The notes under the pieces are model-generated. The model was not told the DNA's origin and searched no databases. It saw only the letters and a program-made list of their open reading frames with translations. Position numbers and translations under genes: made by a program. From Pseudomonas taiwanensis (GTDB taxonomy: Bacteria > Pseudomonadota > Gammaproteobacteria > Pseudomonadales > Pseudomonadaceae): a stretch of 64,000 nucleotides of DNA. Location: NCBI RefSeq assembly GCF_013393345.1, contig NZ_QJRF01000040.1:1-64000 (forward strand), written 5' to 3'. Position 1 is the first letter of the stretch. Each line of letters starts with the position of its first letter. Shown piece by piece: positions 1-12,927 of this stretch.

Positions 1-1367
1 GCGTTGACCCACACGGTGCCGGCCTCGATGCGCGGAACCAGGTTCATCGCCTTGGACAGGTCGTTGGTCCACAGGCTGGCGGCCAGGCCGTACACGCTGT
101 CGTTGGCCAGTTCGATCATGGCGTCCTCATCGGTGAAGGGGATCACCGACAGCACCGGGCCGAAGACTTCCTCGCGCGACACGGTCATCTCGTGGTTCAC
201 GTCGGCCAGCACAGTGGGCTGGACGAAGAAGCCGTCGCCTTCCAGACGCTCGCCACCGGCGACCACGCGGGCGCCTTCCTGGCGGGCCAGGTCGATGTGC
301 TTGAGCACGTTCTGCTGCTGCTTGAATGACACCAGCGGGTTGATCGCCGCGTCCTGGTCCATGCCCGGACCGATGGACAGGCCCTTCACCGCAGCGGCCA
401 GACCCTGAACGAAAGGCTCGTAGATGGACTGGTGCACGTAGAAGCGCGAGGCCGCGGCGCAGACCTGGCCGTTGTTCAGCAGGCCGCCGAGCAGCGCGCC
501 CTGCACGGCCTTCTCCACATCGGCATCGGCCAGCAGGATCATCGGGTTCTTGCCACCCAGCTCCAGGGCGAAGCGGGTCATGTTCTCCATGCAGGCCACG
601 CCGACGCTCTTGCCCACGGCGGTGGAACCGGTGAAGGACACCTTGCTGATCAGCGGGTGCGACGCCAGGGCGTTGCCCACGGTGCTGCCGCCGCCGGTGA
701 CGACGTTGAACACGCCGGCCGGGATGCCCGCTTCGAAGGCCAGTTCGGCCAGGCGCAGGGCGGTCAGCGGGGTTTCGCTGGCGGGCTTGATGACCACGGT
801 GCAGCCGGTAGCCAGCGCCGGCATGGCCTTCCAGGTGGTGATCATCAGCGGGAAGTTCCACGGCACGATGCCGGCAACCACGCCCACCGGCTCACGACGA
901 GCGAAGGCGGTGAAGCGCGAGCCCGGCGGGATCGGGATGGACACGTCCATGGTCTGACCTTCGATCTTGGTCGCCCAGCCGGCCATGTAGCGCATGAACT
1001 CGACGGTGGCGCCGACGTCCAGCATGCGCGACATGTTGATCGACTTGCCCTGGCTCAGGGTTTCCAGCTGGGCCAGTTCCTCGGCGTTCTCCTCCACCAG
1101 GGCGGCGAAACGCAGCAGGATGCGCTCGCGGTCAGCCGGACGCAGGCCGGACCAAGCGCCTGATTCAAAGGCGTGGAAGGCGGACTGCACGGCCTGGTCG
1201 ACATAGTCGAGCGATACATCCGGCACGGTGGCGATGGGCTCGCCCGTGGCCGGATTCACGACCTTCGTGGTCGGGCCTTCCGGCAGCACCCACTGGCCAT
1301 CGATGAAGCAACCGTGGCGGCGCTCCAGGAATGCCGCCACCTGCGGCAGGATCTCAACCTTGCTCAT
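1..1367 (-). CDS. NAD(P)-dependent aldehyde dehydrogenase, phenylacetaldehyde-dehydrogenase-like (3' end outside window)
   Basis: Oxidises an aldehyde to the acid in the cytoplasm. About 455 residues are visible, close to the usual 490-500, and the gene runs off the left edge. Seen: an N-terminus of the FeaB/StyD type (ILPQVAAFL then CFIDGQW), the cofactor-binding stretch VPWNFPL, the FTGSTAVGK loop, the LELGGKNP motif with the catalytic-base glutamate, and the nucleophile Cys in NNGQVCAAA. The ATG is preceded by AAGAGGA. It is the last gene of a leftward series after the flavin oxidase and the outer-membrane protein, so it probably oxidises the aldehyde that the oxidase releases. The exact substrate cannot be read from sequence; the FeaR-like regulator nearby would also fit an aryl aldehyde. 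Confidence 0.92.
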   Translation of the reverse strand, partial: MSKVEILPQVAAFLERRHGCFIDGQWVLPEGPTTKVVNPATGEPIATVPDVSLDYVDQAVQSAFHAFESGAWSGLRPADRERILLRFAALVEENAEELAQLETLSQGKSINMSRMLDVGATVEFMRYMAGWATKIEGQTMDVSIPIPPGSRFTAFARREPVGVVAGIVPWNFPLMITTWKAMPALATGCTVVIKPASETPLTALRLAELAFEAGIPAGVFNVVTGGGSTVGNALASHPLISKVSFTGSTAVGKSVGVACMENMTRFALELGGKNPMILLADADVEKAVQGALLGGLLNNGQVCAAASRFYVHQSIYEPFVQGLAAAVKGLSIGPGMDQDAAINPLVSFKQQQNVLKHIDLARQEGARVVAGGERLEGDGFFVQPTVLADVNHEMTVSREEVFGPVLSVIPFTDEDAMIELANDSVYGLAASLWTNDLSKAMNLVPRIEAGTVWVN

Positions 1368-1460
1368 GTTCGGTCCTCTTGATGTTGAAGGGACGTTGCC
1401 TCGTTTTCCGGGCAAGGCAACGCCATCGGCAGAAGTGCCGGGTGTCTGGAAAGTGGGGAA

Positions 1461-2375
1461 TCAGAAAATCTTGACCAGGCGCAAGTTGACGCGAAAGTCT
1501 TCCTTCGGGCCGTTGCGAACCTCCAGGTCCTGGCCCACCTGGCCCATGAGCTGCACAGTTGGAGCGACCATACGGGCAACCGACAGCAGATAGCGTTTGG
1601 TGTTGAGCGAGTCGTCGAGGTCGACGCCGTTCAAGCGATTCTCGCCGCCTGTCGTGTGGAAGTAGCTCGCACCGACGAAGCTGCCTGGCGAGAAGTCGTA
1701 GCGAAGGTGGGTTTGCAGCTCGAAGATGTGGGACTGCTTGCGGGTCATCCCGGCGAAGTCGTCGTTCTCGCCGAAGAAATCCCACTCTGCGGTGACCTCG
1801 CCTGAGAGGCTCCCGAACAGCGACTGGGTGTAAGACGTGTGGAGCACGCCTTTCCAGCGGTTCTCACCGATGTTGACCGGACCATCGTCAGCGTCGTAGT
1901 TGCCGAGGGGAGGGGCGATCCAGGCGCCGAACGACAGGTAGCGTCTGCGCGCAGGATCATTGACGAGCCAGAACGCGCTACCGATGAGGGGATCGCCCAC
2001 GCCGCTGGCGCTTGTGTCCGCAGCACCTTTCATTCGCAGGCTGCCGAACGGGACTATGACCTGCGGTGCGGCCAGCAGCGGTCCGAGTTCGACGTAATGC
2101 ACGGCGCGAAAGGCCGCGATGTCGTTGTCCAGCCCGAACCCCGGCGTGTCTTGCTTGTGGTCGTTCAGATAAACGTCGTTGCGTTCGGCATGGTTGTAGT
2201 AGAGGACGGCCAGGTTGGTGCCGGCGGGAAATGCGACGTAATCGCCGGGATCGGTGGCGATGACACCTGCGCTGGCACTGGCACCGTACAGGGCACTCAG
2301 CAGCAGGAGGGTGCGAATCAGGCGTTTCACCCGTTTTGCAGGCGGAGTTGGAGCGGGGGCGTTGCTGGATTTCAT
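1461..2375 (-). CDS. outer-membrane transporter of the MetA-pathway (Phenol_MetA_deg) family
   Basis: A 304-residue predicted outer-membrane beta-barrel. The N-terminus is basic, followed by a hydrophobic stretch (LIRTLLLLSALYGASASA) that reads as a signal peptide cleaved near residue 36. The rest is rich in alternating aromatic/polar strands and ends in Phe (LVKIF), the usual outer-membrane C-terminal signature. Features such as GVGDPLIGSAFWL and LSFGAWIAPPLG match the family often annotated 'MetA-pathway of phenol degradation', encoded beside aromatic or other xenobiotic catabolic genes and presumed to carry hydrophobic substrates. It sits 64 bp after the flavin oxidase and 93 bp before the aldehyde dehydrogenase, all leftward. 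The ribosome binding site is weak, so the exact start is uncertain. Confidence 0.8.
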   Translation of the reverse strand: MKSSNAPAPTPPAKRVKRLIRTLLLLSALYGASASAGVIATDPGDYVAFPAGTNLAVLYYNHAERNDVYLNDHKQDTPGFGLDNDIAAFRAVHYVELGPLLAAPQVIVPFGSLRMKGAADTSASGVGDPLIGSAFWLVNDPARRRYLSFGAWIAPPLGNYDADDGPVNIGENRWKGVLHTSYTQSLFGSLSGEVTAEWDFFGENDDFAGMTRKQSHIFELQTHLRYDFSPGSFVGASYFHTTGGENRLNGVDLDDSLNTKRYLLSVARMVAPTVQLMGQVGQDLEVRNGPKEDFRVNLRLVKIF

Positions 2376-2439
2376 TGTTGCGACTCACTTTCTTGGATTT
2401 GTTTTGAGTGGCGACGTCAATGACTGCTGGTGGCGCGTG

Positions 2440-3690
2440 CTACGGGTGGAACACCGTGGAAAGGGAGTCGTAGTCGTCCTGCTTCATCAGTTCGTGAAGC
2501 TGGCGACGACGCACGCCCATGTTCCCGCCGTCGAACAGGGGAAAGGCGAGGGCATCCTGGAGTAGCGAGGCGAGGGGCGACGTGGCATGGTCATAGCTGT
2601 CGATGCCGACGACGCGCATCAGCTCGGTGATGACCCGCACGGCGGTTTCCGAGCCGAACACCTTGGCGTGCAGGGCGAGTTCCAGGGCTTCGGGGGCTTG
2701 TCGGTCGAGTGCGAAGCAGGCCCGGTAGCTGAGGCTGCGCACGGCCTCAATGGCTGCCTTGGCATCTGCCAATGCATAGCCCACGGCCTGATGTTCGATG
2801 ACGGGAACAGGGCCACCCCGTCGTTGGGTCCTGGCGAAGTGCAAGGTGAAGTCGAACGCCGCGCGCAGGACACCAAGCGACATGACGCCGACCAGGGCTG
2901 CGGTCGCCGAGAAGCTGGCGTCCACCACCTGTAGCCCCTGACCGACTCCGCCGACGACGTTGCCTTCGGGAACCCGCACCTGATCCAGGGTGAAGTTGGA
3001 TGTCAGGTGGCCTCGGTGCCCTGGGGATTCGTGATAGCGATTGACCCGGAAACCTGCGGCCGGTCCCGGTACGAGGAGAACGGAAACGCCGTTCTGCGGC
3101 GCTACACCGGCATCAGTGCGGCACACGACGCAAAGCAGGTCAGCCCCCTTGCCGTCCCACCCCGAAGCGCCAGAGATCCATTGCTTGGCTCCGTCGATAA
3201 CCCACTGCTGGCCGTCCAGACGAGCACGGGTGCGAACACCGCCGCCCACTGCATCGGAGTGGTAGTTCGCGCTGCCGCCCGGCTCACTGGATGCAAGCGC
3301 CGCCAGCGGTGCACCACGGCATTCGAGGAAGGGCGCGACGAAGGTCTTTTGCTGCTCCGGGGTGCCGGCCAGGAAGATCGGCATCAGGCCCAGTAGGTTG
3401 GCAAACGCCGTCAGCGGGACATTGGCGTCTTCGGCGTAGAACTCTTCAGCGACTATGGCCATGTCGACCATGCCGCCACCTTCTCCGCCGAAGGGTTGCG
3501 GGATCAACCGGCGCAAGAATCCTTCGCGAACCAATTCCTCATAGAACGGGCGGGTCGCCAGGAAGCGGCTTTCCGGGGTGGGCAAGTAGTGGATGGCTTC
3601 CCTGACCTGGCTCAGGGTTTCCCGGGCGAACCGGCGCGCGGCGGCTTTCAGCTCCGCCTGAGCATCTGTCAGGGTGAAATCGATCGACAT
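2440..3690 (-). CDS. acyl-CoA dehydrogenase-fold flavoprotein, probable nitroalkane oxidase
   Basis: A 416-residue FAD protein with the acyl-CoA dehydrogenase fold: helical N-domain, middle beta-domain (LAALASSEPGGSANY, KQWISGASG) and C-terminal helical bundle. The position of the usual catalytic glutamate (YEG in acyl-CoA dehydrogenases) reads FDGGNMGVRRRQ, giving Asp387 and Arg394. In Fusarium nitroalkane oxidase the catalytic pair is Asp402/Arg409, also seven residues apart in a nearly identical motif. The stretch around ATAALVG (Thr263) corresponds to the Ser276 region, and VIEHQAVGYAL also matches my memory of that enzyme. Expected reaction: nitroalkane + O2 to aldehyde or ketone, nitrite and H2O2. 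It is first in the leftward series; GGAGAG precedes the ATG. The alignment is from memory; a plain acyl-CoA dehydrogenase is the alternative. Confidence 0.78.
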   Translation of the reverse strand: MSIDFTLTDAQAELKAAARRFARETLSQVREAIHYLPTPESRFLATRPFYEELVREGFLRRLIPQPFGGEGGGMVDMAIVAEEFYAEDANVPLTAFANLLGLMPIFLAGTPEQQKTFVAPFLECRGAPLAALASSEPGGSANYHSDAVGGGVRTRARLDGQQWVIDGAKQWISGASGWDGKGADLLCVVCRTDAGVAPQNGVSVLLVPGPAAGFRVNRYHESPGHRGHLTSNFTLDQVRVPEGNVVGGVGQGLQVVDASFSATAALVGVMSLGVLRAAFDFTLHFARTQRRGGPVPVIEHQAVGYALADAKAAIEAVRSLSYRACFALDRQAPEALELALHAKVFGSETAVRVITELMRVVGIDSYDHATSPLASLLQDALAFPLFDGGNMGVRRRQLHELMKQDDYDSLSTVFHP

Positions 3691-3816
3691 GAGACGACTC
3701 TCCGAAAGGGCACTGGAACCGGGGAAAGCCGCTGGATATGCGGCTTCCCCTCAAACCGGATGCTACGGAAGGTCGGGAGTGGGCTCTTCGCCGTGGAGGA
3801 ACGGCTTTATTGACTG

Positions 3817-4818
3817 TCAGCGCAGTGCGAGAGCGGGCTGCTTTGCGTGCAGGGCTCGATAGTCCCGTGCAGTCAATTGGAAGCGATTGCGGAAGGTGCG
3901 GCTGAAGTGGGCGGCGTTTTCGAAGCCCCAGGAATAGGCCAGGTAACTGATGGAGTAGGTGTCGGCGGGCAGGTTTGCGAGGTCGCGCGCACAGCCGTCC
4001 AGGCGCATTTCCTGGATATGCCGGGCAACGGTTGTGCGGGTTCCCTGGAACAGTTGGTGGAGGTAACGCACCGAGATGCCCAGCGCCCTGGCAATGGCCT
4101 CGGGACAGAGCTCGGGCTGGCGGATATGTTCGGCGATGTACGCATAGGCCCGGTTGAGGTGGTAGGTCTGCAGATTGCTCGCGGCGATGGGAGCTCGGTC
4201 GCTCAGCTCGCTCAGGGCACCGCCCAGCAGGTCGAGGGTGCTGCCGGCCATGTAGCGGAAGGTCGAGGGCTGGATTGCATGGCGCTCATCGAGCAGTGAT
4301 CGCAAGTGCCCCGTCAGCAGGCGACCTACCCCACGGCCACCGTCCACGCGCAGGGCCGTGATTCTTTCGGCGCCTTTCACATAGCGCTGGAACAGGTCCC
4401 GGGGCAAGCGCACGACCAGCTGTTGCAGGTCGCCACTGAACTCCCAGCGAAACGGCTGGGTGCAATCGTAAAGCGCGCCGTCTCCGGGTTTGAGTACTAC
4501 GCTGCGGTCGCTCTGGGTCAGACGCCCTTCGCCCTGCAGTTGCAGGCTGTAGAGAAAGGCATCGTCCGTGCCCTGGCGGATGTGCGCGCGGTCGTGTGCG
4601 CAGTGACAGCTGACCGATGTCACGCGACTGAGATACAGCTCACCGAACATCTGCTCGATCAGCGTGGCCTTAAGCCTGTGCTCGGGCTGCAAGGTGATGC
4701 GCAACGGCGCACAACTGCGCTCGACGGCCGCCTCCCAGGCATCCACCTCGTCGAAGAAGAACTCGTCGAGGGTGGAGGAGGGCCGCTGGCTTGAACTGGC
4801 CGGGAGTACTTCGCTCAT
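3817..4818 (-). CDS. AraC-family transcriptional activator, FeaR-like
   Basis: A 333-residue regulator. The N-terminal two-thirds resemble the AraC-binding-like domain of FeaR-type activators (for example LYSLQLQGEGRL and LKPGDGALYD). The C-terminal ~100 residues form the double helix-turn-helix: first helix pair around LCPEAIARALGISVRYLHQLF, second around ISYLAYSWGFENAAHFSRTFRNRF. An excellent ribosome binding site (GAGGAAA) precedes the ATG. It lies just upstream of, and in the same direction as, the flavin oxidase / porin / aldehyde dehydrogenase genes. FeaR activates phenylethylamine oxidase and phenylacetaldehyde dehydrogenase genes in E. coli, so local control of this aldehyde-forming pathway is the natural inference. 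The operator was not identified. Confidence 0.88.
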   Translation of the reverse strand: MSEVLPASSSQRPSSTLDEFFFDEVDAWEAAVERSCAPLRITLQPEHRLKATLIEQMFGELYLSRVTSVSCHCAHDRAHIRQGTDDAFLYSLQLQGEGRLTQSDRSVVLKPGDGALYDCTQPFRWEFSGDLQQLVVRLPRDLFQRYVKGAERITALRVDGGRGVGRLLTGHLRSLLDERHAIQPSTFRYMAGSTLDLLGGALSELSDRAPIAASNLQTYHLNRAYAYIAEHIRQPELCPEAIARALGISVRYLHQLFQGTRTTVARHIQEMRLDGCARDLANLPADTYSISYLAYSWGFENAAHFSRTFRNRFQLTARDYRALHAKQPALALR

Positions 4819-5002: not shown

Positions 5003-5395
5003 CTATGAAACTGACGATTCCGCTTTCTGCAGATTCCGCTCGAGTTCATCCAGTGCGGCGGAATTTCGCGCTGCCCAGTCATAGAGCTCGCGCAGTGGCT
5101 CGACGAAGGTTTCCCCCAGCGGGGTCAGCGAATACTCGACCCGGGGAGGAACGACGTTGAACACTTCGCGATGCACCAGACCGCTGTTTTCCACGTCCCG
5201 CAAGGTCTGCGTGAGCATCTTCTTGGAAATGCCAGGGAGGGTTCGCTCCAGTTGTCCGGTCCGCAGCGCGCCGTGGCTCAACGCGTAGATGACCATGGAG
5301 GTCCACTTGCCATTGAGGATGTAGTGGATGCGTCGCTGCGGGCAGTTTTCCCTGAGTACGAATGCCGATTCGGCGTGTTCAGTGGTTGCGTTCAT
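5003..5395 (-). CDS. HxlR-family winged-helix regulator
   Basis: A 130-residue MarR/HxlR-type regulator. The characteristic N-terminal Cys (RENCPQRR) is followed by the winged helix: LNGKWTSMVIYAL, LRTGQLERTLPGISKKMLTQTL, and the wing VFNVVPPRVEYSLTPLG. The Cys at this place is the redox or aldehyde sensor in several HxlR members (YodB, QorR, HypR). It is divergent from a quinone-oxidoreductase-like gene, the same arrangement as QorR/Qor, which suggests repression of that gene until an electrophile or oxidant modifies the Cys. I chose the ATG at 5395; a TTG four codons upstream is possible. Confidence 0.88.
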   Translation of the reverse strand: MNATTEHAESAFVLRENCPQRRIHYILNGKWTSMVIYALSHGALRTGQLERTLPGISKKMLTQTLRDVENSGLVHREVFNVVPPRVEYSLTPLGETFVEPLRELYDWAARNSAALDELERNLQKAESSVS

Positions 5396-5437
5396 TGTGG
5401 TTACCAAAAGGTGCCTATAGAACTAGTTGGTATCTAC

Positions 5438-5453
5438 GGCACAAAAAAGTGCC
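5438..5453. promoter_or_regulatory. dyad in the HxlR/oxidoreductase divergent promoter
   Basis: In the 199-bp divergent region GGCAC and GTGCC flank six A residues, giving a perfect 5-bp inverted repeat. A further copy of GTGCCTA lies at 5411-5417, and GTGCCTA recurs at 5449-5455. Such repeats between an HxlR gene and its target are typical operator material, but no binding consensus was matched. Confidence 0.35.
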
Positions 5454-5594
5454 TACTTACTTAAATGACCATACGGTGATTAGGATGGTACCACTTGATT
5501 GGTGACCTCAACTGAAAGTCGCCAAACGGTCAGCGCAAGACCTCCAACAGGAGCTGGCTTGCGAACACATTCAACCTGATTGCGAGATACCACC

Positions 5595-6629
5595 ATGAAA
5601 GCAGCTGTCATCCACGCCTTTGGCGGCCCCGAACAAATCCGACTCGAAGACGTCCCCACGCCGGTTCCCGGTCCGGGTGAAGTCCTGGTGAAGGTGCTGG
5701 CTGCCGGCATCAACCGCCTGGATCACTACGTGCGTCTTGGCCAGATTGCGCCCCAGTTGGCTTTCCCGCACATCCTCGGCTCCGACGCGGTGGGCGAAGT
5801 GGCTGAATTGGGCGCTGGTGTGACCGGCTTCAGCGTTGGCGAGCGGGTAATCTCGATGCCGGGGTATCCGCTGGATGCGGCGGAAGCGCAGGTTCGCCCC
5901 GTCACCAACGCGGCCAGCTATGCCATTCCCGGTATCCACGTGCCAGGGACCTATGCGCAGTACATCGTCGTGAATGAGCGCTGGCTGCTTCGGGATACAA
6001 CGGGGCTCCCGGTCGAGCAGATTGCGGCGCTGCCCGTTGCCCTGCTCATCGCGATCCGCTCCGTACAGATCGTCGGCGAAGTGAAGGCGGGTGATCGGGT
6101 GCTCATCCATGCGGGGGCGTCCAGCACCGGCATCATGAGTATCCAGGTAGCCCGTGCGCTGGGAGCGCGCGTGGCGGTCACCGTTCAGAGCGAGTCCTCG
6201 GCAGCGCTTGCGGCCAGCCTGGGCGCCGAACTGGTCATCAACAGCAACGAAGAAGATTTCGTCGAAGCACTCGGCAAGTGGACGGAGGGGAAGGGTGTCG
6301 ACGTTGCGATCGACAATCTGGGTGGCGATGTACTGGCCCGGACTATCGAGGCGGTCCGGCCGATGGGCATCATCGTGGCCATGGGGTTCATGGCGGGCAG
6401 CGAAGTCACCTTCGACATCAGGAGCTTTTTCTTCACCCAGAAGCAGCTGCGCGGAACACTGGTAGGCGATATCGAAGACTTCGCCGCCTGGCTCGACCCG
6501 ATCAGGGAAGGCAAGGTCAAGCCGGTGATCGACAGCGTCCTGCCCCTGTCCCGCGCGGCGGAAGCTCACGAACGCATCGCCAGCAACCAGGCGCGCGGGA
6601 GCATCATCCTCCTGCCCTGGGCGGAATGA
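5595..6629 (+). CDS. zinc-independent alcohol dehydrogenase-like / NAD(P)H:quinone oxidoreductase family protein
   Basis: A 344-residue MDR-superfamily protein. The N-terminus MKAAVIHAFGGPEQ and the Rossmann motif HAGASSTGIMSIQVARALGA are standard. The GHE zinc motif is replaced by GSDAVGEV and the structural-zinc Cys cluster is absent, which places it with quinone or enone reductases rather than zinc alcohol dehydrogenases. Predicted cytoplasmic NADPH-dependent reduction of a quinone or enone. I chose the ATG at 5595 over an upstream TTG because it starts the family N-terminus. It is divergent from the HxlR gene. Its stop overlaps the next start (ATGA), so the two proteins are probably co-translated. 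Confidence 0.88.
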   Translation: MKAAVIHAFGGPEQIRLEDVPTPVPGPGEVLVKVLAAGINRLDHYVRLGQIAPQLAFPHILGSDAVGEVAELGAGVTGFSVGERVISMPGYPLDAAEAQVRPVTNAASYAIPGIHVPGTYAQYIVVNERWLLRDTTGLPVEQIAALPVALLIAIRSVQIVGEVKAGDRVLIHAGASSTGIMSIQVARALGARVAVTVQSESSAALAASLGAELVINSNEEDFVEALGKWTEGKGVDVAIDNLGGDVLARTIEAVRPMGIIVAMGFMAGSEVTFDIRSFFFTQKQLRGTLVGDIEDFAAWLDPIREGKVKPVIDSVLPLSRAAEAHERIASNQARGSIILLPWAE

Positions 6630-7129
6630 TGATCCTGCCTGGGGAAGGGCGCATCGCTGATCCGGCGATGCAGCGCCTAATCGCGCTCGGCATCGGCCTG
6701 CCCAAACCACCACAACCGCTAGGTGCCTACCTGGCGGTTGTCGAGGCTGGAACGACACTGCACGTTTCGATGCAAGGGCCGGTGATTGATGGACGACCGA
6801 TGCTGACCGGATTGCTCGGGCGAGAACTTTCGATTGAAGAGGGCCGCATCGCGGCCCGGCTTTCCGTGCTCAATTCGCTCGCCCAGTTGCACCAGCACCT
6901 GGGCGGCTTCGAACGCATTCGACAGGTAATTCGCCTGGAGGCATACGTGGCCTGCGACGAAGGTTTCGTGGCACACCCGCAGGTGGTGGACGGCGCGTCC
7001 GAACTCCTGGCCAGCATCTTTGAGCAGCGGGCCGGCCATGTGCGCTCGGTATGCGGGGTTCGCAACCTGCCAGCTAACCTGCCCGTGGCCATTGCCCTTA
7101 GCTTCGAACTGGCAGGTGCGGAGCACTAG
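6626..7129 (+). CDS. RidA/YjgF-family protein
   Basis: A 167-residue YjgF/YER057c/UK114 protein, longer than the classical ~125-residue RidA and resembling the YjgF-like-1 subgroup. Seen: VEAGTTLHVSMQGP in the first strands, the central helix AARLSVLNSLAQLHQHL, RIRQVIRLEAYVAC, and near the C-terminus RSVCGVRNLPANLPVAIALSF, where the substrate-carboxylate Arg usually lies. It overlaps the preceding oxidoreductase by four bases. Subgroup members act on enamines/imines or have unknown roles, so the partner reaction is inferred only from context. Confidence 0.85.
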   Translation: MMILPGEGRIADPAMQRLIALGIGLPKPPQPLGAYLAVVEAGTTLHVSMQGPVIDGRPMLTGLLGRELSIEEGRIAARLSVLNSLAQLHQHLGGFERIRQVIRLEAYVACDEGFVAHPQVVDGASELLASIFEQRAGHVRSVCGVRNLPANLPVAIALSFELAGAEH

Positions 7130-7347
7130 CAGCGGTAAAGTGTTGCACTGAAATTTCCAGAAGCATTTCTCCGCTCGCTCAGCCGGGCCTGTTCATCAGA
7201 TTTCATCTTGGATGGTTAATTTCTGACCTAGCCTTTTTGCAGCACAGAATAAGCAGCCGGCCCGCCAATCAGGGCACCCGGGGCAGTAAATCCCGCACCG
7301 GGTTGCACCGCACGCCCCGCAGTCAATCGAGCCTCCCCTCGAACCAT

Positions 7348-10300
7348 ATGGACATGAGTGACCGGCTCATGAAAGGGCGGTTGGCCCTTGCGCCGGCGGC
7401 AGACAAACAACCTCCAGGCGATGGCATTGGCATGGGCAAGAGTTCGTCGATCTTGTGGGACGATGGTGAACGCACCTACTGCCGTGAGCTTCGCGCGGGC
7501 GAGGAGGGTGGACAGAGCGTTCTGATAGCACGCCTGGTCACCGAACACCCTTCGCCTGCCGCCCTTGATCGGCTCACCCATGAATTCAGTCTGAAGGACG
7601 ATCTGGACGGCGCCTGGGCGGTGCGCCCACTGGAATTGGTGCGCGAGGCGGGTCGGCCCTGCCTGGTGTACGAGGACCCGGGTGGCGAGTTGCTGTCCGA
7701 ACTGCTCGCCGCGCCCATGGAGACCGGGGATTTCCTGCATCTTGCCGTGGGCATCGCCGGGGCATTGTCCAGATTCCACCAGCGCGGCCTGATCCATAAG
7801 GACCTCAAACCCGCGCATATCCTGGTGAACTGCAGCGACGGCCAGGCCCGGCTCAGCGGATTCGGCCTGGCCTCGCGGCTGCCTCGGGAGCGGCAGGCGC
7901 CTGAAGCGCCGGAAACCATCGCCGGCACACTGGCCTACATGGCGCCGGAGCAGACCGGCCGGATGAACCGCTCGATCGATTCACGCAGTGACCTGTATGC
8001 GCTTGGCGTCACGCTTTACCAGATGCTGACTGGAACCTTGCCGTTCCAGGCCGGCGATGCCATGGAATGGGTGCATTGCCACATTGCTCGCAAGGCTATT
8101 CCGCCCCACGAGCGGGTGGCAACCGTTCCGGCCATGGTTTCCCGCATCGTGATGAAGCTGCTCGCGAAGACGGCCGAAGACCGTTACCAGACTGCCGCCA
8201 GCCTGGAGCATGACTTGCACCAATGCCTGGCCGACTGGCAGCGCCAGCGTCGCATCGATGAGTTTCCCCTGGATGAACGTGGCACGCCTGACCAGTTGCT
8301 GATCCCCGAGAAGTTGTACGGGCGGGAGCACGAAGTGGACGCCCTGGTTGCGGCCTTCCATCGCATCGTCAACAGCAGCTCGCCGGAACTGGTGCTGGTC
8401 TCCGGCTATTCCGGCATCGGTAAGTCCTCGGTCGTCAACGAACTGCACAAGGTGCTGGTGGCGCAGCACGGGCTCTTCGCGTCGGGCAAGTTCGACCAGT
8501 ACCAACGCGACATCCCTTATTCGACGCTGGTTCAGGCGTTCCAGAGCCTGCTGCGTCCGCTCCTGGGCAAGCGCGACAGCGAGCTGGCCCGCTGGCGCAC
8601 GGCCTTGTCTGACGCGCTGGAACCCAATGCGCGGCTGATGACCGATCTGCTCCCCGAACTGAAGCTGATCATTGGCGAGCCACCACCCGTGCCGGAGCTG
8701 GACGCGCCCCAGGCAAAACGCCGGTTCCTGCTGGTATTTCAACGTTTCATCGGTGTATTTGCCCAGGCCGAGCATCCCCTGGCGCTGTTTCTCGATGACT
8801 TGCAATGGCTCGATACGGCGACGCTCGATCTGCTGGAAGAACTGCTGACGAGTTCGGACCTCCGCCATCTGATGCTCATTGGCGCCTATCGCGATAACGA
8901 AGTGGATGCGCTCCACCCCCTGACGGGCAAGCTCCAGGCCATAAGGAATGCTGGCGGCCGGATCGAGCAAATCAGCCTGTCCCCCCTGTCAGCCGAGCAC
9001 ATCACCCAGCTGCTCGCCGAATCGCTCCATTGCGGCCAGGAGCGCATCGAACCGCTGGCCCGGCTGATGCACGACAAGACCGCCGGCAATCCCTTCTTCG
9101 TCATCCAGTTCCTCCACGCCCTGGTCGACGGAGGACTGCTGGCCTTCGATCACGAGGTGGAGCAGTGGGTCTGGGACGCCCGGCGAATCCACGCCAAGGG
9201 GTACACGGAAAACGTCGTTGACCTGATGGTGGAAAAGCTGAGCCGCTTGCCGGCCGAGACTCAGCAGGCTTTGCAGCAGCTGGCCTGCCTGGGCAATGTC
9301 GCGAAGACCCGCACGCTGGCTTCCGTGCTCGGCATCAAGCGCTCCCAGGTACAGGCCTTACTTTGGGAGGCGATTCGCCAGGAAGTGGTCGAGAGGGTGG
9401 AGGGTGCCTATGCCTTCGTACACGACCGCATCCACGAGGCCGCGTATTCGCTGATCGCCGAAACTTCCCGTGCCGAAGCGCATTTGCGCATCGGCCGGAT
9501 GCTTGTCAAACAGACGCCGAAGGAAAGCTGGGAGGAGGCGATTTTCGAGATCGCCGGCCAACTCAATCGCGGCGCTGGGCTGATCACCGACCGCGAAGAG
9601 CGGGAGCAGTTGGCAGAGATCAACCTTCTGGCTGGGCGGCGCGCCAAGGCCGCGACGACATTCGCTTCGGCGCTCACCTATCTCGCGGCGGGTGCCAATC
9701 TGCTGGATGAAGCGTCCTGGGAGCGCCGACATGAGTTGGCGTTCGCACTGGAGCTGAATCGCGCCGAATGCGAGTTCCTCACCGGCCAACTGATGATTGC
9801 CGACGAACGACTGGCGGCCCTGACCAACCGTGTCGCCGGTCCGGTCGAATGGGCCAGGGTGGCGTGTGTGCGGATGGATGTGTGCCTGCTGCTCAACCAG
9901 AGCGATCGTGCGGTCTCGGTGTGCCTCGATTTCCTGCGGCATGTGGGCATCGAATGGTCACCTACGCCTGCGGACGAGGTGGTGCGCGGCGAGTATGAGC
10001 GCATCTGGACCGGGCTCGCCGGAAGGCCGATCGAAGGCCTCATCGACCTGCCATTGATGGAGGATCCCATTGCCCTTGCGACCGTCGAGGCGCTGGTCAA
10101 GCTGACGTCACCCGCCTTGCATGCGAATTCGAACCTGGCTTCCCTGACGATCTGCAAGGCGATCACGCTCAGCATCGAGCATGGCAACTGCGATGCCTCG
10201 TGCGTGGCCTACGCCACTGTGCCCCGGATTACCGGCCGGCGCTTCGGCGACTATGAGGCCGGGTATCGATTTGGCGAGCTCGCCTGCAAACTCGTCGAGC

Positions 10301-12927
10301 GCCTGGGGCTCCAGCGCTACGAGGCGCGCACCTACTTCTGCTTCTCGGTCTTCGTGGCGCGCTGGGCGCAGCCCATCCGGAGCTGTTCGGACCAGTTACA
10401 GCGTGTCTTTGCCACGGCTAACCGGATCGGCGACCTGCCGTTTGGCGCCTTTTCGCGCAACTGCCTCGTCTCGAACCTGCTGTTCGCCGGTGAGCGATTG
10501 CCCGAGCTGCAAGTGGAGGCTGAGCGGGGCCTGGCCTATGCCCGCAAGATTCGTTTCGGACTCGTCATCGGCTTTATTGAAAACCAGCTTGCGCTGATCC
10601 GGACACTGAGGGGCCTCACGCCCACCTTCGGCTGCCTGGACGATGAGCATTTCAATGAGGCCCAGGCTGAGGAGCGCATAGCGAACGTCTCGCGGCTGCT
10701 CGCGTGCTGGCATTGGGTGCGGAAACTCCAGGCCCGCTACCTGGCGGGAGATATCGAGGCCGCGATGGAAGCAGCGTCGCAGGCGGAAGAGGTGCTCTGG
10801 GCGTCCCATTCCTTCATCGAGGAGGCCGAGTATTTCTTCTACGCCGCCCTGGCCAGGGCGGCGCTGTGCGACAGCATCCCGGCCGGTGATCGCGAACAGC
10901 ACCTGGATGCCCTGGTCGCACACCAGCAACAGCTGCAAAGCTGGGTAGCGCTCTGTGCCGAGAATTTCGCCAGCCGCGCCCTGCTGGTAAGCGCTGAAAT
11001 AGCCCGCATAGAAGGCCGCCGCGTGGATGCCGAACTGCTCTATGAACAGGCCATCCAGTCGGCGCAGGAAAGCGGTTTCGACCAGATCGAAGCGCTGGCC
11101 AATGAGCTCGCGTCGCGGTTCTACGCATCGGCTGGGTTCCACAAGATCGCCCGCCTGTACCTGCAGGATGCCCGCTACGCCTACGTGCGCTGGGGGGCGA
11201 CGGGCAAGGTGCGGCAGCTCGAGCAAGCGCATCCGTTCCTGAAGGCGGACGACCCAGCCCCTGGCCCGACGAGCACCATTGCCACGCCGGTGGAGCACCT
11301 GGACCTCGCGACCGTGATCAAGGTGTCACAGGCGGCTTCCAGTGAAATCGTTCTGGAAAGATTGATCGACATGGTCATGCGCACGGCCATTGAACAGGCC
11401 GGCGCGGAACGTGGGTTACTGGTGCTGTCGGACGCCGGCGAGGCACGCATAGCGGCAGAAGCGACCATGGGAGGCGAGGCCGCCGAGCTGCAACTTCGCG
11501 ATAGTCCGGTGAGTGCGGACATGCTGCCGGAGTCGATCCTTTTCCATGTCCTGCGCGCCCACGAGAGCATCGTGCTGGATGATGCCTCGGCCGAACCCGG
11601 CTTTGCTGCGGACACCTACATCCGCACGCGTCACTGCCGCTCGATTCTCTGCCTGCCGCTGATGAACCAGGCGAAACTCATCGGTGCCCTTTACCTGGAA
11701 AACAACCTCACGGCCCGCGTATTCAGCCCGACGCGCATCGCCGTGCTGAAGCTGGTTGCCTCGCAAGCCGCGATTTCCCTGGAGAACGCTCGCCTGTACC
11801 GCGAAGTGGCGGAGCGCGAAGCGAAGATCCGGCGTCTGGTGGATGCCAACATCATCGGCATCGTGGTCTGGAATGCCAGTGGCGGCCTGATCGATGCCAA
11901 CGATGCCTTTCTCCGCATCATCGGCTATGCGCGCGAGGACCTGTCGGCGGGCCGCCTGCGCTGGCGGGACCTGACGCCGCCGGAGTTCATGGCGATCAGT
12001 GAACGCTCCCTGGCGAGTGCGTTGCAAACAGGGCGGGCGCAGCCCTATGAGAAGGAATACATCAGGAAAGATGGCAGCCGCGTGCCAGTGGTCGTCGGCC
12101 TGGCTTCCTTCGAAGGGAGCCGGAAGGAAGGTGTCGCCTTCGTTTTGGACCTGACCGAACGCAAGCAGGCCGAAGAAAAGGTCCGTGGGAGCGAGCGGCG
12201 CTACCGCGAAGTGCAGACGGAACTGGCACACGCCAACCGCGTCGCCACCATGGGCCAGCTGACGGCCACCATCGCCCACGAAGTCAATCAACCCATCGCA
12301 GCGACCATCCTCAACGCCCAGGTCGCCCAGCGGCTACTCGGTGCCTCATCACCCGACCTCGGCGAAGTCGGAAACACGATTGGGCGAATCATCAGGGATG
12401 GCAACCGGGCGGCAGATGTCATCGGGCGCATCCGCGAGTTGCTGCGCAAGGCACCCTCCCAGAAGCTGCCAATGGACATCAACGAGGCGATTCTAGAAAT
12501 GGTGGAGTTCACCCGCGGCCAGGCCTCCAAGGGCAAGGCCCTGGTGAAGCTGCAACTGGCAGAGGGCCTGCCGCGCATCGAGGGCGACCGTGTCGAACTG
12601 CAACAGGTACTCCTCAATCTGATCATCAATGCACTGGAAGCGATGAGCGACATCGGGGATGGCGGGCGGCAGCTCGTCATCAGCACGGTCGAGGACGGTG
12701 GCGGTTACGTGCGGGTGGCGGTGAGCGATTCAGGTCCGGGTTTCGCCTCGGAGCCGGAGCAGATCTTCGCACCGTTCTACACCACGAAATCCGCTGGCCT
12801 GGGCATGGGCTTGTCGATCTGCCGCTCGATCATCGACGCCCATGGTGGCCAATTGTGGGCGAGCGGAAACGACCCCCGCGGCGCGACGGTCCAGTTCACG
12901 GTTCCCGTTCATAACGCGGCTTCCTGA
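7348..12927 (+). CDS. hybrid sensor: degenerate Ser/Thr kinase - AAA ATPase - GAF - PAS - histidine kinase
   Basis: About 1,859 residues. Domain order: protein-kinase-like domain (~40-290) with catalytic loop HKDLKP (His150, Asp152) and APE-like YMAPEQ; AAA/STAND ATPase with Walker A GYSGIGKSS (~353) and Walker B LALFLDDLQWLD (~480); a long helical region (~650-1320); GAF (~1330-1490); PAS (~1495-1610); HisKA with phospho-acceptor His1644 in IAHEVNQP; HATPase_c with N box NLIINALEAM and G boxes DSGPGF and GLGMGL. The DFG aspartate is replaced (LSGFG, Gly171) and the beta-3 lysine is not evident, so the kinase domain may only bind ligand. No receiver gene is adjacent. The start is uncertain: no clear ribosome binding site, and in-frame TTG/ATG codons lie on both sides. 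Confidence 0.9.
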   Translation: MDMSDRLMKGRLALAPAADKQPPGDGIGMGKSSSILWDDGERTYCRELRAGEEGGQSVLIARLVTEHPSPAALDRLTHEFSLKDDLDGAWAVRPLELVREAGRPCLVYEDPGGELLSELLAAPMETGDFLHLAVGIAGALSRFHQRGLIHKDLKPAHILVNCSDGQARLSGFGLASRLPRERQAPEAPETIAGTLAYMAPEQTGRMNRSIDSRSDLYALGVTLYQMLTGTLPFQAGDAMEWVHCHIARKAIPPHERVATVPAMVSRIVMKLLAKTAEDRYQTAASLEHDLHQCLADWQRQRRIDEFPLDERGTPDQLLIPEKLYGREHEVDALVAAFHRIVNSSSPELVLVSGYSGIGKSSVVNELHKVLVAQHGLFASGKFDQYQRDIPYSTLVQAFQSLLRPLLGKRDSELARWRTALSDALEPNARLMTDLLPELKLIIGEPPPVPELDAPQAKRRFLLVFQRFIGVFAQAEHPLALFLDDLQWLDTATLDLLEELLTSSDLRHLMLIGAYRDNEVDALHPLTGKLQAIRNAGGRIEQISLSPLSAEHITQLLAESLHCGQERIEPLARLMHDKTAGNPFFVIQFLHALVDGGLLAFDHEVEQWVWDARRIHAKGYTENVVDLMVEKLSRLPAETQQALQQLACLGNVAKTRTLASVLGIKRSQVQALLWEAIRQEVVERVEGAYAFVHDRIHEAAYSLIAETSRAEAHLRIGRMLVKQTPKESWEEAIFEIAGQLNRGAGLITDREEREQLAEINLLAGRRAKAATTFASALTYLAAGANLLDEASWERRHELAFALELNRAECEFLTGQLMIADERLAALTNRVAGPVEWARVACVRMDVCLLLNQSDRAVSVCLDFLRHVGIEWSPTPADEVVRGEYERIWTGLAGRPIEGLIDLPLMEDPIALATVEALVKLTSPALHANSNLASLTICKAITLSIEHGNCDASCVAYATVPRITGRRFGDYEAGYRFGELACKLVERLGLQRYEARTYFCFSVFVARWAQPIRSCSDQLQRVFATANRIGDLPFGAFSRNCLVSNLLFAGERLPELQVEAERGLAYARKIRFGLVIGFIENQLALIRTLRGLTPTFGCLDDEHFNEAQAEERIANVSRLLACWHWVRKLQARYLAGDIEAAMEAASQAEEVLWASHSFIEEAEYFFYAALARAALCDSIPAGDREQHLDALVAHQQQLQSWVALCAENFASRALLVSAEIARIEGRRVDAELLYEQAIQSAQESGFDQIEALANELASRFYASAGFHKIARLYLQDARYAYVRWGATGKVRQLEQAHPFLKADDPAPGPTSTIATPVEHLDLATVIKVSQAASSEIVLERLIDMVMRTAIEQAGAERGLLVLSDAGEARIAAEATMGGEAAELQLRDSPVSADMLPESILFHVLRAHESIVLDDASAEPGFAADTYIRTRHCRSILCLPLMNQAKLIGALYLENNLTARVFSPTRIAVLKLVASQAAISLENARLYREVAEREAKIRRLVDANIIGIVVWNASGGLIDANDAFLRIIGYAREDLSAGRLRWRDLTPPEFMAISERSLASALQTGRAQPYEKEYIRKDGSRVPVVVGLASFEGSRKEGVAFVLDLTERKQAEEKVRGSERRYREVQTELAHANRVATMGQLTATIAHEVNQPIAATILNAQVAQRLLGASSPDLGEVGNTIGRIIRDGNRAADVIGRIRELLRKAPSQKLPMDINEAILEMVEFTRGQASKGKALVKLQLAEGLPRIEGDRVELQQVLLNLIINALEAMSDIGDGGRQLVISTVEDGGGYVRVAVSDSGPGFASEPEQIFAPFYTTKSAGLGMGLSICRSIIDAHGGQLWASGNDPRGATVQFTVPVHNAAS

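Follow-up and report, generated by a model that had tools for sequence, protein, structure and literature searches.

The window analyzed here is a 64,000-nucleotide stretch of the 6.69 Mb Pseudomonas taiwanensis genome and starts with the opening base of contig C33. Four open frames on the minus strand fill the first 4.8 kb and encode a regulator, a flavoprotein, a PF13557 protein, and an aldehyde dehydrogenase. The regulator (333 residues; 3817..4818) is a FeaR-like protein of the AraC family with PF14525 and HTH_18 domains. The flavoprotein (416 residues; 2440..3690) belongs to the acyl-CoA dehydrogenase fold and is assigned to the nitroalkane oxidase type by its solved relatives, its residues, and its place in a tree. 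The third frame (304 residues; 1461..2375) encodes a probable outer membrane channel that matches PF13557 (Phenol_MetA_deg) with 91 bits against a cut-off of 22. The fourth (3..1367) encodes a PF00171 aldehyde dehydrogenase that resembles StyD/phenylacetaldehyde dehydrogenase and has its C terminus cut off because contig C33 begins at window base 1. A first-pass annotation had named these four genes and read them as a nitroalkane oxidation cluster. All four are present as open frames, the cluster is real, and the analysis supports that interpretation. The name 'hydrophobic-compound porin' given to the channel is only approximate; the PF13557 match stands, and PF13557 is a putative family.

Comparison of the flavoprotein with proteins of solved structure gave nearly full-length matches to the fungal nitroalkane oxidases 3mkh (308 bits), which we take to be from Podospora anserina, and 2c0u (279 bits), the enzyme of Fusarium oxysporum, whereas the best acyl-CoA dehydrogenase reached 154 bits. 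The difference between 308 and 154 bits places the likeness to nitroalkane oxidase beyond chance. The flavoprotein is 43.2% identical to 3mkh and 38.6% identical to 2c0u; the fungal enzymes are 43.7% identical to each other and 23.5–24.7% identical to two acyl-CoA dehydrogenases of this genome. A profile search, whose profile took in two of this genome's acyl-CoA dehydrogenases together with one row from a neighboring clade, also ranks nitroalkane oxidases first (425 and 413 bits versus 379 bits for acyl-CoA dehydrogenases). Seventeen NCBIfam models match the protein and none does so at its cut-off. The AlphaFold model, built from 26 rows, is confident with a mean predicted local distance difference test score (pLDDT) of 92.5 and a predicted template modeling score (pTM) of 0.91.

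We take Asp402 to be the catalytic base of Fusarium nitroalkane oxidase, and Arg409, Ser276, and Ser171 are presumed to have roles in the same enzyme. The computed alignment places Asp387 (codon 2530..2532, minus strand) on Asp402, Arg394 (codon 2509..2511, minus strand) on Arg409, Ser173 on Ser171, and Thr263 on Ser276. The match of the Asp387/Arg394 pair had been proposed in the first-pass annotation and is exact in this alignment. Residue conservation was read from a bacterial sample of 35 proteins from 33 loci, near-duplicates included (L009 and the window, L037 and L038, L050 and L051). Among the 21 plasmid records with an oxidase match, 11 were used; five records from Agrobacterium vitis, four from Paraburkholderia, and one unlisted record were left out, as were two proteins with 35–36% identity (L062 from G1036 and L063 from G1139). 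One protein was taken from the multi-site Shinella plasmid record and two from that of Sulfitobacter. Position 409 is Arg in all 35 bacterial rows, position 402 is Asp in 26, Glu in seven, and Gly in two, and position 276 is Thr in 23, Ser in 10, and Ala in two.

The neighboring clade of acyl-CoA dehydrogenase-like proteins also carries Asp402 but has Gln at position 409 in 10 of the 10 rows that reach the site, and Asp402 by itself was rejected as a diagnostic mark. Six proteins of the acyl-CoA dehydrogenase fold from this genome have Glu (five) or Ala (one) at position 402. Arg409 is the better marker, notwithstanding L007, an acyl-CoA dehydrogenase-fold protein of this genome that has Arg409 and an Ala at the base position. 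The motif DGGNxGxRR is offered as a sequence marker for the Asp-type members. The flavoprotein has neither the Glu base with an E-I-Q-R-type motif nor the grouping with acyl-CoA dehydrogenases that would identify it as one of them.

Two kinds of variant occur within the bacterial sample. In L077:11200-12432 (G1135) and L078:6952-8196 (G977), Gly replaces the catalytic Asp (GGGNLGVRRR) and Ala replaces Ser276; these are the only Gly402 rows and the only Ala276 rows, and each gene has an intact Glu-type paralogue nearby with two AraC genes between. The Gly402 paralogues are possibly inactive or altered partners. The Glu402 sub-branch consists of L033, L048, L077:7041-8258, L078:11220-12437, L081, L082, and L083, and six of these seven rows belong either to a Rhodococcus plasmid or to members of the order that includes G779 (Rhodococcus).

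A maximum-likelihood tree was calculated from 51 rows after four of 55 were removed (one fragment, one truncated, and two near-duplicates). In this midpoint-rooted tree, where the outer rows have long branches, 33 bacterial rows fall together with the two fungal enzymes in a single group with support of 98/94. The group stands apart from the ten-row neighboring clade and the six acyl-CoA dehydrogenase-fold proteins of this genome. Clustering with true acyl-CoA dehydrogenases had been named in the first-pass annotation as a refuting test, and the protein joins the fungal nitroalkane oxidases. A plain acyl-CoA dehydrogenase identity was rejected on the solved relatives, residues, and tree.

The closest relative of the flavoprotein is from Pseudomonas sp. 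BN411 (99% identity), followed by Pseudomonadaceae rows (78–79%), a Rhizobium plasmid (65%), and Rhodococcus wratislaviensis (62%). At a threshold of E 1e-55, the oxidase is patchy: within the genus it is found in three of 18 genomes and within the family in eight of 398, this genome included. The third-position G+C of the oxidase gene is 0.76, near the lower quartile of 0.773 for the 37 open reading frames of the window (median 0.812), and base composition was rejected as a sign of recent transfer. The patchy distribution and the tree argue for transfer better than base composition does. Eight phage records gave matches, and the five listed hold only distant acyl-CoA dehydrogenases (26–29% identity). 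A separate oxidase lineage exists in Pseudomonadaceae (L022, L040, and L041), and G015 has both lineages. The neighboring clade includes paired acyl-CoA dehydrogenase-like genes with Asp402/Gln409 in Sulfitobacter, Paraburkholderia, G1396, and Shinella p2 (L035, L036, L076, and L116). Close to the Sulfitobacter pair are genes for ETF, a truncated hemoglobin, and a regulator of the Rrf2 type, and the Shinella p2 pair, a putative clade member by its layout, has ribA and nirBD nearby. These pairs perhaps encode another nitro- or nitrogen oxide-linked flavoenzyme pair.

The genes around the oxidase were counted within 4 kb at the 33 oxidase loci, at seven loci of the neighboring clade, and in 20 control stretches around other acyl-CoA dehydrogenase-fold genes of this genome (from 35 such matches). 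A FeaR-like AraC gene is present at 26 of 33 oxidase loci, one of seven neighboring-clade loci, and none of 20 control stretches; these counts are biased toward the oxidase loci because the four reference AraC proteins came from them, and some stretches stop at contig ends. An aldehyde dehydrogenase gene is found at 11/33, 2/7, and 4/20, a PF13557-type channel at 8/33, 0/7, and 0/20, and an aldoxime dehydratase at 2/33, 0/7, and 0/20, respectively. The association of regulator and oxidase noted in the first-pass annotation recurs in other genera, Rhodococcus included. Regulator, oxidase, and dehydrogenase occur together in Rhodococcus L010 and L033, and no channel match was found at these two loci. 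The regulator had been called a FeaR-type activator; it is FeaR-like but is not FeaR proper, scoring 179.5 bits against the NCBI FeaR cut-off of 199, compared with 370.7 bits for the true FeaR of this genome on contig C70. These two proteins are 26% identical and are the only such regulators in the genome at 1e-8.

An alignment of five Pseudomonadaceae loci (two near-identical pairs plus one) revealed a shared block, CCTTCC(G/A)TAGCATC, before the oxidase gene. The window copy, CCTTCCGTAGCATC (3759..3772, minus strand), is a lead for a regulator or promoter element. Nowhere else in the window is it matched exactly, and two weaker matches fall within the kinase gene at 7237-12927. An exact copy of the block also precedes the oxidase gene of G003, from which the regulator gene is separated by 3.1 kb, and a two-mismatch copy lies directly after the G003 regulator gene (chance alone would give 0.23 matches with ≤2 mismatches in that locus). 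The block is absent from the C70 stretch when up to three mismatches are allowed. A second shared block around GTCAA-AAA is found in the same five upstream regions.

A second copy of the aldehyde dehydrogenase gene, 96% identical, is found where contig C70 begins (L018:3-1367), beside FeaR, paaX, paaN, paaH, paaI, 3-oxoadipyl-CoA thiolase, and paaK. The copies differ at 54 nucleotides, all within the first 363 of the 1365 compared, and the last 1002 are identical. This pattern resembles the outcome of recent gene conversion, and such an event is also the probable reason for the assembly break at the window start. The truncated window dehydrogenase scores 604 bits with the StyD model (NF045735, cut-off 850), its best-scoring model. 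Phenylacetate genes are also found near the oxidase elsewhere. In G003, a genome assembled as a single contig, paaK shares the strand of the oxidase and lies ~8 kb upstream of it, and in Novosphingobium paaK and paaZ are 5–7 kb from the oxidase with transposase genes in between. The near identity of the window dehydrogenase to the copy beside FeaR and the phenylacetate genes makes phenylacetaldehyde (or its 4-hydroxy form) the likeliest aldehyde, and with phenylacetaldehyde as the likeliest product, 2-phenylnitroethane becomes the likeliest substrate.

Genes for aldoxime, nitrile, and nitrite metabolism occur beside several relatives. On Agrobacterium tumefaciens pAtAF1_95 (L034), two AraC genes separate the oxidase from an aldoxime dehydratase (611 bits to 3w08) at a distance of 2.4 kb. 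In G1301 (L075), the distance is 0.2 kb, and an amidase and CbtA are near. The Shinella plasmid has nirB, nirD, and cysG upstream of the oxidase, with nirD ~6 kb away, an aptly placed set if nitrite is the product. The channel protein of Shinella shares 79% identity with that of L117 (Agrobacterium vitis), which belongs to an aldoxime dehydratase/amidase/nitrile hydratase cluster, and 70% with that of L118 (Rhizobium); the window channel is 32% identical to both. An aldoxime dehydratase is found in seven of the 22 oxidase-bearing genomes given, including five of five from the order of G720, and 15 have no match. For comparison, 19 of 352 genomes sampled from that order score over the cut-off, as do none of 14 controls; nine of those 19 and four of the five come from one genus (g124), and no probability is therefore attached to the co-occurrence. 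Aldoxime dehydratase is present on 28 of 72,556 plasmid records, and among the 25 such plasmids listed, four also carry an oxidase match, all from Agrobacterium. 2-Phenylnitroethane is a plant volatile that occurs with phenylacetaldoxime. Tobacco that expresses maize CYP79A61 emits it together with phenylacetaldoxime, phenylacetaldehyde, and benzyl cyanide (PMC4446944), and it is listed alongside phenylacetaldoxime and phenylacetaldehyde in Plumeria flowers (PMC11469922).

On the strength of homology, residues, grouping, and gene association, the window cluster probably encodes a nitroalkane oxidase within a regulated catabolic operon. The best reading of the substrate class is a primary arylalkyl (or alkyl) nitro compound, and 2-phenylnitroethane is tentatively proposed as the main natural substrate. 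The predicted transport, oxidase activity, and regulation would combine as follows. A hydrophobic nitro compound would cross the outer membrane via the PF13557 channel. By analogy with the fungal enzymes, Asp387 would act as the base, with Arg394 beside it, to remove the α-proton; a flavin N5 adduct of the nitronate would form, nitrite and the aldehyde would leave, and flavin adenine dinucleotide (FAD) would be reoxidized by O2 to give H2O2. The flavin N5 adduct is stated for Fusarium nitroalkane oxidase in PMC3509576 and PMC7662398. The StyD-like dehydrogenase would convert the aldehyde into the acid, which would enter the paa route, and the FeaR-like AraC protein would turn the operon on.

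Several observations weigh against this proposal. The profile-search margin over acyl-CoA dehydrogenases is small (413–425 versus 379 bits). Ser276 of the fungal enzymes, which is also Ser in 3mkh, is Thr263 in the window protein, with the hydroxyl retained. The best tree nests the fungal enzymes within the bacterial group, and this nesting is not firm because a bacteria-only clade with the fungal rows outside survives the approximately unbiased (AU) test (p-AU 0.205). An aldehyde dehydrogenase is matched within 4 kb at just 11 of the 33 loci; the G080 and G149 clusters lack one, with related genes elsewhere in both genomes, and the Rhodococcus wratislaviensis L010 dehydrogenase (5062-6740) is split into two open frames, either a broken gene or a sequencing error. 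The full-length G003 dehydrogenase scores 678 bits, under the StyD cut-off of 850, although StyD is still its best model. At L022, L040, and L041, neither an AraC protein nor an aldehyde dehydrogenase was matched, and the neighbors are LysR-type and permease genes; the LysR domain is confirmed in L022 only and the permease (cytosine/purine-type) in L040 only. The 11/33 dehydrogenase count together with these LysR/permease loci indicates that the substrate probably varies within the group. The window's own genome has no aldoxime dehydratase match.

The alternative that survives best is a true nitroalkane oxidase that acts on another primary nitroalkane (aliphatic, indolic, or 4-hydroxyphenyl), with the dehydrogenase being a broad-range convenience. 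It overlaps the proposal of a nitroalkane oxidase operon and takes its probability from within that proposal. The 22 of 33 loci without an aldehyde dehydrogenase match within 4 kb and the wide variation of oxidase neighbors speak for it, but the phenylacetate gene links, two in the window lineage and one in Novosphingobium, and the aldoxime dehydratase links speak against it, and we consider it unlikely, if still the most credible of the alternatives. That the bacterial group acts on a different N–O compound with an acidic α C–H (an aldoxime or aldoxime/nitrile intermediate) would account for the aldoxime dehydratase, amidase, and CbtA genes among the neighbors and for the 79% identity between the Shinella channel and that of an aldoxime dehydratase/nitrile hydratase cluster. 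Retention of the fungal Asp/Arg pair, the nitrite reductase genes near the Shinella copy, and the 15 of 22 oxidase-bearing genomes given that have no aldoxime dehydratase match make this improbable. An acyl-CoA dehydrogenase (e.g. for aryl-acyl-CoA) that resembles nitroalkane oxidase would suit the shared superfamily, the label on annotated plasmid records, and the acyl-CoA ligase genes ≤8 kb away in L030 and L032, but is very improbable given the best solved relatives, residues, and tree, the 17 matched NCBIfam models of which none reaches its cut-off, and the Sulfitobacter ETF-beta probe, with no reported match across the 33 oxidase loci, unlike Sulfitobacter of the neighboring clade.

The proposed operon may extend beyond the four genes. 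An HxlR regulator (5003-5407, minus strand), a zinc-type oxidoreductase (5580-6629, plus strand), and a YjgF-like protein (6626-7129, plus strand) flank the cluster as candidate members, and similar genes accompany it in G003 (L021:3490-5555). G003 also has a second aldehyde dehydrogenase gene, separated from the regulator gene by a frame of ~254 residues (L021:7200-7964) with no Pfam match. Farther along the window, 7237-12927 encodes an 1896-residue hybrid signaling protein with protein kinase, AAA_16, GAF, PAS, HisKA, and HATPase domains.

A broader scheme can be put forward tentatively. Soil and plant-associated bacteria may share a mobile pathway for plant nitrogenous defense volatiles with FeaR-like control and a common channel type, in which aldoxime dehydratase and nitrile hydrolysis would form an aldoxime arm and nitroalkane oxidase would form a nitro arm that converts 2-phenylnitroethane to phenylacetaldehyde and nitrite. 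If true, this pathway would give the nitroalkane oxidases of the acyl-CoA dehydrogenase fold a physiological role. Since the cluster brings its own regulator, channel, and dehydrogenase, the question of the natural substrate can be put to the test in Pseudomonas by growth, induction, and gene removal, with one compound named as the first to try. It also gives a sharper label than the 'acyl-CoA dehydrogenase family protein' now found on annotated plasmid records of the group.

The cluster can be set beside four known systems. Aldoxime dehydratase-nitrile hydratase-amidase clusters (L117 and L118) share a related channel and AraC regulators, and the L075 oxidase lies among such genes. Their AraC type differs, with L117 and the window protein 22.7% identical over 119 residues, and the window genome has no aldoxime dehydratase match. 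Nitronate monooxygenase has an unrelated flavin mononucleotide (FMN) fold, and its family is not among the family-model matches of the window flavoprotein. This enzyme (2-nitropropane dioxygenase) likewise degrades nitroalkanes, as described in PMC11510023 and PMC9552603. Two reports count against novelty: PMC11510023 mentions a 'nitroalkane oxidase from Streptomyces', and PMC12029414 says that many haloarchaea encode 'nitroalkane oxidase', with the protein family unstated in either passage. PMC12417419 is on the Fusarium enzyme. No bacterial operon of this make-up turned up in searches of an open-license library that leaves out most subscription papers. The Streptomyces enzyme is presumably nitronate monooxygenase-like.

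The FeaR-FeaB system converts 2-phenylethylamine and tyramine to phenylacetate. The window cluster resembles it in having a FeaR-like regulator and a dehydrogenase nearly identical to the one beside the true FeaR of the same genome. It differs in having a nitroalkane oxidase-type enzyme in place of the amine oxidase and a regulator that is 26% identical to FeaR and below the cut-off. To our knowledge, nitroalkane oxidases of the acyl-CoA dehydrogenase fold have been studied from fungi only, with model substrates rather than a natural one. The kind of enzyme is known from fungi, and what is new here is the candidate substrate. The window enzyme shares with the fungal nitroalkane oxidases (2c0u and its variants, and 3mkh) near-full-length homology, the Asp402/Arg409 pair, the Ser171 position, and the tree group. 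It differs in being bacterial and in having Thr at the Ser276 position, and its gene is clustered with those for a regulator, an aldehyde dehydrogenase, and a probable channel, which together point to a candidate physiological substrate.

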